From the NCBI GenBank assembly GCA_035516965.1, contig DATIZR010000061.1, forward strand, positions 1 through 64,000: a stretch of DNA of 64,000 nt, read 5' to 3'. A program made the translations under genes and the position numbers. Every line of letters begins with the position of its first letter. The first letter of the stretch is position 1. The stretch comes from Nitrospirota bacterium. GTDB lineage: Bacteria; Nitrospirota; UBA9217. Below are positions 59,167-60,426 of this stretch, piece by piece. The notes beneath the pieces are model-generated. The model worked only from the letters and a program-made list of their open reading frames with translations, was not told where the DNA came from and ran no database searches.

Positions 59167-59350
59167 TGGTGCGCCCGGCGGGAGTCGAGTCGAACCTCAC
59201 TCCGTCGCCACAAAAGGGCTTCCCCAGCGGGGGCTCGCCCGTCTCTCCCAAAGCTCAGGGGAAGCCATCTCCTGAAACCCCTTTGTCGTGGTTTCTCCTG
59301 CTGCTCTCGGGGGCTTTGCTGCTTGCGCTATCTTGTCGACGATATTTTTA
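59167..59350 (-). repeat. tRNA-Arg(CCG) 3' fragment plus palindromic element, unit A
   Basis: 184 bp. On the plus strand: complement of the tRNA 3' end from CCA to the T loop (59167-59196, with a 3-base GTC duplication), a GC-rich core (to ~59284), a degenerate copy of the opposite T-arm strand (GTCGTGGTTTC), then a spacer (59296-59350) nearly identical to 59480-59533. Unit A is the most diverged of the four. Confidence 0.85.
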
Positions 59351-59533
59351 TGGTGCGCCCGGCGGGAGTCGAACCGCACTCCGTCGCCCTGAAGGGCTCC
59401 CCAAAGGGGGCCAGCCCCCTCTGGTCTCTCCCCCGAAGCTCAGGGGAATCCTTCCCTTGAAACCCCTGGTCGTGGGTTCTCCTGTTGCTTCCCGGGCTTT
59501 GCTGATTGCGCTATCTTGTCGACGATGTTTTTA
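59351..59533 (-). repeat. tRNA-Arg(CCG) 3' fragment plus palindromic element, unit B
   Basis: 183 bp, tandem with unit A. Fragment 59351-59375, core with CTCCCCAAAGGGGG and CCCCCGAAGCTCAGGGG, then GGTCGTGGGTTC (59468-59479), the exact complement of GAACCCACGACC in the intact tRNA at 59554-59565, then the spacer. The intact gene follows at 59534. Confidence 0.9.
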
Positions 59534-59610
59534 TGGTGCGCCCGGCGGGAGTCGAACCCACGACCTTCGGCTTCGGAGGCCGACGCTCTATCCAGCTGAG
59601 CTACGGGCGC
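59534..59610 (-). tRNA. tRNA-Arg (CCG)
   Basis: 77 bases with encoded CCA. Acceptor GCGCCCG/CGGGCGC, anticodon loop CTCCGAA gives CCG. T-arm GTGGGTTCGACTCCCGC. Followed downstream by two tandem element units. Confidence 0.95.
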
Positions 59611-59702
59611 ATGAGAACAAGGAAGATCAAAGCGATTGAGAATGAAACCTTTACAGCAAACCGCATCCCCGCGTTTTGCTCTGTGCATTTTCCATTTATT
59701 TC

Positions 59703-59876
59703 TGGCGCGCCCGGCAGGAGTCGAACCTGCGGCGGCGCCCGTAAAGGGCTCCCCAAAGGGGGCCAGCCCCCTCTGGTGTCTCCCCCGAAGCACAGGGGAG
59801 TTTCTCCCCTTCCACCCCTCGGCCGCAGGGTGCGCGGCGCCTGTCATCACTAGCGGGTAAGCACTGAGTTGGCAAT
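59703..59876 (-). repeat. tRNA-Arg(TCG) 3' fragment plus palindromic element
   Basis: 174 bp. Fragment 59703-59733 matches the 3' end of the intact tRNA up to GCGGC; core as in unit B (GGGCTCCCCAAAGGGGG); the outer stem CCTGCGGC (59726-59733) pairs with GCCGCAGG (59822-59829). The following spacer is not visibly shared with the upstream flank. Confidence 0.88.
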
Positions 59877-59953
59877 TGGCGCGCCCGGCAGGAGTCGAAC
59901 CTGCGGCCTGCGGATTCGAAGTCCGACGCTCTATCCAGCTGAGCTACGGGCGC
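59877..59953 (-). tRNA. tRNA-Arg (TCG)
   Basis: 77 bases with encoded CCA; discriminator G. Acceptor GCGCCCG/CGGGCGC, anticodon loop CTTCGAA gives TCG. Confidence 0.95.
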
Positions 59954-60014
59954 CCTCGGTACCGGGTCTAAAAACTGGTAGAGACGGCCGGCAACGACCG
60001 TCTCTACGGAAATT

Positions 60015-60091
60015 TGGGGTGAGCGACGGGGCTCGAACCCGCGGCCACAAGGGCCACAACCTTGTGCTCTACCAGCTGAGCTACGCCCACC
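60015..60091 (-). tRNA. tRNA-His (GTG)
   Basis: 77 bases including the extra 5' G (G-1) and encoded CCA. Acceptor GTGGGCG/CGCTCAC (one G-T), discriminator C, anticodon loop TTGTGGC gives GTG. No element beside it. Confidence 0.95.
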
Positions 60092-60249
60092 GTATTGACA
60101 GTATGAAAAGCGGAGCACATTGTATAGCGTTGACGTTCATTTGTCAACAGCCATTATGTCTGCCGCCCTCAATCCTCGAAGGTAGCTTGTACCTTGCTCC
60201 AGATTGCCTTTCTTGTCTTGCATCCGCATTCGATCTAGGTCGATAGAAC

Positions 60250-60426
60250 TGGCGCGCCTGAAGGGATTCGAACCCCTGACCTGTCGCGCGCCAGGCGCTC
60301 CCCAGAGGGGGTCCGCCCCCTCTGGTATCTCCCCCGAAGCTCAGGGGAATCCTTCCCCTGAAACCCCTGGGGTCAGGCTGTGGTCGTTCTTGACTTGCAT
60401 CAGTATTCGACCTTGGTCGATAGAAC
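60250..60426 (-). repeat. tRNA-Arg(TCT) 3' fragment plus palindromic element
   Basis: 177 bp. Fragment 60250-60281 matches the 3' part of the intact gene; core CTCCCCAGAGGGGG ... CCCCCGAAGCTCAGGGGAATCC; outer stem CCTGACC (60275-60281) with GGTCAGG (60371-60377). The spacers 60212-60249 and 60389-60426 are alike at 33 of 38 positions. Confidence 0.9.

Follow-up and report, generated by a model that had tools for sequence, protein, structure and literature searches.

Short palindromic DNA is known in bacteria from REP/BIME palindromes and bacterial MITEs, which are non-coding and have no enzyme of their own. A folded form is known from the attP of CTX phages, a forked hairpin used by XerC/XerD, with dif as the target and a whole phage as the element. 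Other systems relevant here are the gene cassettes of integrons with their attC sites (PMC2727003), as well as genomic islands and prophages that target tRNA genes with tyrosine integrases, for which we follow the definition given in PMC4383910.

Here, we describe short units behind tRNA genes, which we compared with these systems, starting from a window in which four of them are found (i.e. the whole stretch of 64,000 nucleotides of DNA that was analysed). They occur in Nitrospirota, the phylum of the nitrifier Nitrospira. Our search of the open-access literature found no description of this unit family, and this family of mobile DNA of fewer than 200 bases in Nitrospirota has apparently not been described. 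We put the probability at roughly one half that the unit is a non-autonomous integrative mini-element, which recombines at tRNA 3' ends as a folded strand with a recombinase supplied in trans.

The tRNA-Arg locus of the window

According to ARAGORN, the minus strand of positions 58809–60659 encodes seven real tRNA genes, i.e. Leu, Lys, Arg-CCG, Arg-TCG, His, Arg-TCT and Pro. An eighth call, tRNA-Ala(GGC) at 59703–59799, is a false gene composed of the copied tail and the core of the TCG unit, and false genes of this kind may also sit in the annotations of related genomes. Four units of 174–184 bp, two of them in tandem at CCG, are located behind the three tRNA-Arg genes, with each unit beginning one base past the tRNA CCA and ending with that of the copied tail. 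This arrangement had been noticed in a sequence-only reading of the window and was confirmed, including the copies of the own tRNA's tail, which are exact over 25, 31 and 32 nt and near-exact in the distal CCG unit. The absence of units from the Leu, Lys, His and Pro tRNAs of the window was confirmed as well. The restriction to tRNA-Arg, however, is a property of the window only, since eight amino-acid types are used across other genomes.

The tRNA-Arg(CCG) gene (59534–59610, minus strand, as are all features of the locus; ARAGORN and Rfam RF00005) is the target of unit U2 (59351–59533, 183 bp), which consists of a spacer, an inverted tRNA piece, a hairpin core and the tail copy. The inverted piece GAACCCACGACC (59468–59479) is the exact antisense of 12 nt of tRNA-Arg(CCG), positions 46–57, and the GC-rich core (59385–59467) contains three hairpins. 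The tail copy (59351–59375) is identical to positions 52–76 of the tRNA over 25 nt, the chance of an exact match of this length within 200 bp being about 1e-13. Immediately ahead of the identity block, U2 has a one-base insertion relative to the tRNA (59376), as seen in the sequence and in the family-wide count given below. The distal CCG copy U1 (59167–59350, 184 bp), in tandem to U2, has a degenerate inverted tRNA piece (59285–59298), a core with an 8-nt deletion and a tail with a 5-nt internal repeat.

Unit U3 (59703–59876, 174 bp) follows the tRNA-Arg(TCG) gene (59877–59953; ARAGORN) and ends in a tail copy of 31 nt without mismatch (59703–59733), its inverted piece CCTGCGGCC (59821–59829) being an exact 9 nt antisense of tRNA positions 46–54. 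Behind the tRNA-Arg(TCT) gene (60427–60503; ARAGORN), unit U4 (60250–60426, 177 bp) harbours a 32 nt exact tail copy (60250–60281) and the inverted piece CCTGACCC (60370–60377), an 8 nt antisense of positions 45–52. The sequence-only reading had recognized this unit but not that its 40-nt spacer is duplicated as well (60387–60426 and 60210–60249), with the second copy directly past the unit as part of a 72-nt direct repeat that includes the tail (93 % identity). Likewise, it had described spacer, core and tail but overlooked that each window unit carries, immediately left of the core, an imperfect antisense copy of the same tRNA's variable loop/T-arm. The cores of the window are about 85–95 nt long, with three copies being 85–93 % alike and the distal CCG core being truncated.

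In the window region, the Rfam gathering score was reached by tRNA only, and at one related locus by a cobalamin riboswitch. Further covariance model matches in the source genome are located on contigs C62, C88 and C39; those on C62 and C88, which were read, have no complete tRNA alongside and tRNA-Ala-like tails. Elsewhere, the window encodes a tyrosine recombinase (34581–35096, PF00589, in a frame of 297 aa) and a Y1 transposase (8557–8880, PF01797, in a frame of 330 aa).

Distribution among Nitrospirota

A first covariance model, built from the four window cores, detected relatives in almost every member of the window's family and weak ones in another family, most of them just downstream of tRNAs, on the same strand and with the own tRNA's tail copied, as determined by ARAGORN and tail scans. 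With a second model of 30 cores and strict filters, matches were obtained in 68 of 296 Nitrospirota genomes. Matches in this phylum lie 50–200 nt downstream of a tRNA on the same strand, in most cases accompanied by a copy of the 3' end of that tRNA, and number 1–12 per genome in the 13 genomes searched more deeply, with the most (12) in G236. Units are found at tRNAs for Ser, Gly, Thr, Asp, Ala, Met, Leu and Arg in several Nitrospirota families. Of the 116 tRNAs with a core, 95 have a tail copy, compared to 10 of the 166 without one, which supports the earlier suggestion that the layout is the footprint of an element targeting tRNA 3' ends. The core is neither confined to the window nor abundant away from tRNAs: it is widespread in Nitrospirota, and those core matches away from complete tRNAs that were read in unit-bearing families mostly retain tRNA 3' pieces, several being the displaced ends of islands once integrated into a tRNA.

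When 84,980 species were scanned with an exact pattern, the matches listed included many Nitrospira/Nitrospirae records, almost all of them tRNA-linked, among these N. defluvii (FP929003) and N. moscoviensis (CP011801). These two carriers are kept in culture or enrichment, which makes the unit testable. Listed matches in other phyla have no adjoining tRNA, except for records labelled Nitrosospira (bin CMX) and Pyrinomonadaceae, which possibly result from mis-binning. We consider the matches in Streptomyces, Ruegeria, Rhodocyclales and others, which have no tRNA next to them, to be due to chance. Among phage and plasmid records, no match spans most of the query and the listed ones are tRNA genes or tRNA-sized pieces; a single pattern match in a viral contig was not confirmed by the covariance model.

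Matches in family f4 (G033) were not accepted as units, since they lack a tRNA, score barely over the threshold and resemble another kind of intergenic repeat. This dispersed repeat (L225, L226 and L227) has similar GC-rich hairpins followed by GTCCGGATAT.TATCCGC.G.ATTAATAA; three of the six matches in this one genome were read.

Inverted piece, tail copy and inserted base

Across the family, units are usually 145–210 bp long and end in a copied tail of 16–32 nt that is particular to its target. For tRNA types whose tails come in several variants, as with the three intact variants of Arg-TCG, the copy usually corresponds to the one found in the same genome. The T-arm of the tRNA recurs in inverted form in 104 of 105 Nitrospirota units, and this piece meets the core at a nearly constant point, opposite tRNA position 53 in units of the Ser/Leu/Ala type and opposite position 44–45 in those of the Gly/Asp/Thr/Met/Arg type. 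The inverted piece matches its own host tRNA with a mean score of 29, compared to 16 for other tRNAs, and the own tRNA is strictly the best partner in 88 of 104 units. Exactly one extra base is found in the tail copy where the identity with the tRNA starts in 50 of 57 units of the Ser/Leu/Ala type and in 35 of 47 of the Gly/Asp/Thr/Met/Arg type, eight of the latter being contiguous.

Of note, in two genera (G002 and G003; L055 and L064), the 3' half of a tRNA-Ala at an island end is joined to the inverted piece via GGTTCGGCTTGCCGAAC, a fusion in which the acceptor end and the terminator are deleted between the inverted repeats.

Mobility of the units

The units are mobile, as is evident from the exact junctions of filled and empty sites, tandem arrays, relocation and transfer between families. 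Within one Nitrospira genus, the interval between tRNA-Ser(GGA) and ffs harbours a unit in G061, G223, G093, G112, G325, G168 and other genomes and is precisely empty in G126, G118, G298, G326, G029, G244 and G138. Both states share the same flank: AACAGAGCTAGC follows the last CCA of the filled site in G120, where the core is shortened, and directly follows the tRNA CCA in the empty site of G126. At tRNA-Ser(CGA), the CCA is followed by CGCAGAGTCGCC in the empty site of G321 and by TGCAGAGTCGCC in the filled site of G325, with the recipient flank past the unit unchanged. Filled and empty sites also exist at tRNA-Gly(CCC), based on match coordinates. In addition, a second recurrent Nitrospira sequence family starts right past the CCA of the tRNA or of the tail (TACCGAGCTCGCTCGACCCGGAGCC...TTGGCGACGGGATAA...; L245, L220, L231, L300–L307 and others), and this is also what remains in several empty sites.

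The orthologous Ser(CGA) site harbours two unrelated unit types at the same position in sister Nitrospira species. Those of G325, G168 and G258 belong to the Ser(GGA) type, and the G325 unit shares 97 % identity in the core and 92 % over the whole unit, spacer included, with the Ser(GGA) unit of the same genome. Those of G126, G093, G118, G298 and G318 resemble the Ser units of family f18, with core identities of up to 90 %, compared to only about 68 % with the native type. Units have therefore relocated between two tRNA genes, together with the spacer, and have been transferred between families. The relocated piece extends from past the tRNA CCA to the copied CCA and equals the period of the tandem arrays, of which G081 has one with three units at a single tRNA-Gly. 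Precise empty sites, a move between tRNA genes and transfer between families show that the core does insert, in support of the proposed targeting of tRNA 3' ends.

Remnants with an inverted piece but without a complete core are also found at Ser(CGA) in G120, G112 and G223 and at Ser(GGA) in G207. In the window's family, the units at the three tRNA-Arg genes vary between genera and even within a genus, with G001 lacking the TCG and TCT units. Most of the presence and absence could reflect precise deletion following old insertions, which we count against our preferred explanation.

Spread by homology is a serious rival to site-specific recombination. As passive passengers, the units would move through the tRNA gene and the tail copy, either by homologous recombination or by annealing of short homologies, be amplified by unequal exchange and be lost by replication slippage, all without a dedicated recombinase. 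It is in keeping with this that the relocation observed links two tRNA-Ser genes with an identical 3' tail and 82 % identity overall, that near-identical unit arrays exist and that frequent losses leave the tRNA intact. However, such exchanges would have only 16–25 nt of homology on one side to work through, the moved piece stops exactly at the tail, with the adjoining flank being that of the recipient, and both the fixed inverted copy and the conserved one-base insertion are left unexplained. We consider purely homology-driven spread rather unlikely, and site-specific recombination by an enzyme acting in trans to be the most likely process.

Candidate recombinases

A linked recombinase was not found, as the units carry no gene and are too short for one. 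Integrase genes are located directly 5' of some unit-bearing tRNAs, such as in G186 and at two loci in G197, and belong to a general island clade, with a unit at four of the eight tRNA-Gly cases. Together with the presence of a unit at both ends of islands at tRNA-Ala (G007) and tRNA-Thr (G197), this would fit units that are cis-acting attachment modules of larger tRNA-targeted islands, are moved by island integrases and persist alone as leftovers. Yet most units stand alone, with a fairly constant size and no island remnants, and the same integrase clade is found at many unit-free tRNAs, making an origin as island modules unlikely. Nor can the adjacent integrase be generally regarded as the autonomous partner of the unit, since most of the Pro, Arg and Gly tRNAs at which the clade occurs have no unit. 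We also dismissed cargo-bearing cassettes between units (G201 and G197), where the intervening stretches resemble ordinary islands.

In one clade of island tyrosine integrases of Nitrospiraceae, the gene ends right at the 5' end of the targeted tRNA or runs into it (Gly-CCC, Pro-TGG, Arg-TCT, Arg-CCT and Thr-TGT), and copies of such integrases are located at L354:1677-2538, L355:2827-3385 and L218:1437-2350. The three copies that were read beside unit-bearing tRNAs appear to be broken or truncated.

No integron integrase exceeded the curated cut-off in 11 of the 13 unit-bearing genomes, and with only two of 13 carriers above it, this enzyme was rejected as a universal partner.

Predicted folding

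Pairing of the inverted and direct copies around the core can give a forked hairpin, usually with one base unpaired at the start of the tail. In the minimum-energy DNA fold, this inverted-repeat stem is predicted for 72 of 104 units. It is missing from the fold of the other 32, among them the three window units tested, i.e. the CCG-proximal, the TCG (with only 5 pairs) and the TCT unit, where the stem does not have at least 6 pairs, which counts against our preferred explanation. Of the two strands, the tRNA-sense one gives the better fold in 93 of 103 units.

The second hairpin of the core has a three-pair extension with four fully compensated states, i.e. TAC/GTA (22), CAC/GTG (21), TGC/GCA (11) and CGC/GCG (9). 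Of its 219 positions, 205 pair, compared to a mean of 169 in shuffles, none of 2000 of which reached 205; the shuffles are uncorrected for shared descent, but we judge the four compensated states to be good support. Taken together, the compensatory changes and the strand bias support a folded single strand, RNA or DNA alike.

If the strand were RNA, the unit might regulate or protect its cognate tRNA, with the inverted piece pairing with the tRNA and the tail copy competing. In fact, the inverted piece pairs better with the intact tRNA than with the unit's own bulged tail, the covariation suggests selected folding, and G-T pairs outnumber A-C mismatches in one stem. On the other hand, the covarying extension of the second hairpin has almost no wobble pairs (1/219), and units of the Leu/Ala type are preceded by an intrinsic-terminator-like hairpin between tRNA and unit. 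Since the presence of units is also patchy among sister species and orthologous tRNAs, an RNA function is less likely, and we regard it as quite improbable. With an excess of G-T in one stem and none in another, counts of wobble versus A:C were discarded as a means to discriminate between RNA and single-stranded DNA.

Proposed mechanism

Movement of the units as REP-like palindromes by a Y1 (RAYT-type) transposase is already largely refuted and barely conceivable: units are palindromic, non-coding and multicopy, and Y1 transposases occur in 10 of the 13 unit-bearing genomes, but no match was found in G236, which has the most units (12), or in the f18 genomes G081 and G196, excluding RAYT as a universal partner, and to our knowledge REP transposition neither targets tRNA ends nor copies 16–32 nt of the target.

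Our preferred reading remains that of a mini-element inserted by an enzyme in trans. The element would enter a tRNA gene by recombination inside the tRNA's own 3' end, restoring the intact tRNA on one side and leaving the tail copy as a mark on the other, which fits the inserted length, the duplicated tail and the exact empty sites. For this, the tRNA-sense strand may fold such that the inverted copy pairs with the direct one and a double-stranded attachment site is restored under the core hairpins. The folded strand, and not the linear duplex, would then be recombined with the tRNA gene by a tyrosine recombinase in trans, candidates being a resident island integrase or XerC/D. It is the inverted copy and the unpaired base that point to the folded strand as the substrate. 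Loss of the unit would be easy because the hairpin sits between direct repeats. We infer site-specific recombination rather than homology alone, a single-stranded substrate and the identity of the enzyme. A difficulty for this explanation is that a move between tRNA genes with different tails would give a chimeric tRNA; therefore, lineages specific to one tRNA must need some further step.

Regardless of the mechanism, the units account for false tRNA calls and spurious ORFs next to Nitrospirota tRNA genes. They would rank among the smallest site-specifically inserted elements known to us, with tRNA 3' ends being used by an element that lacks any enzyme.

Comparison with known systems

Like REP/BIME palindromes and MITEs, the units are short, palindromic, non-coding and enzyme-free. 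In contrast to these, they have a strict tRNA 3' target, a target-specific tail of 16–32 nt, a low copy number and no linked RAYT. They also differ from a MITE of a DDE insertion sequence, since their inverted ends repeat the target tRNA and vary from target to target instead of being constant.

With tRNA-targeted islands, the units share an intact tRNA on one side and a displaced 3' fragment of the same tRNA on the other, a precise empty site in relatives and repeated insertion at one tRNA. However, the unit usually measures 145–210 bp instead of kilobases and encodes neither an integrase nor any other gene. Moreover, it has an inverted tRNA copy and a conserved hairpin core, and many tRNA types are used within one unit sequence family.

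The resemblance to integron cassettes and attC sites consists in tandem units and in an imperfect palindrome with an unpaired base, a variable folded tip and one favoured strand. Unlike these, the target is a tRNA gene and not attI, the unit has no cargo gene, and an integron integrase above the cut-off is found in only 2 of the 13 carrier genomes. By eye, no attC boxes (RYYYAAC/GTTRRRY) were found in the units, the tail start GGTTCRA having a C as the fourth base of GTTRRRY. As in the attP of CTX phages, the target site is present in two inverted copies, separated by about 90 nt, that can fold into a double-stranded site with hairpins between them, but here the target is a tRNA T-arm and no phage is involved.

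Therefore, the unit belongs to none of these groups, having no integrase as an island would, no integron integrase or attC boxes and no phage; it works like attC or the CTX attP in folded form without being a member of either. It is tempting to speculate, as a tentative possibility, that the units represent a new class of single-strand mobile cassette of fewer than 200 bases, in which the folded strand rebuilds the tRNA T-arm attachment site, a host-supplied tyrosine recombinase performs the insertion and tRNA genes serve as the equivalents of attI throughout the phylum. A demonstration of the folded-strand step would make the element categorically new, and the inverted target copy within the unit offers a direct test of folded-strand recombination outside integrons and CTX-type phages.
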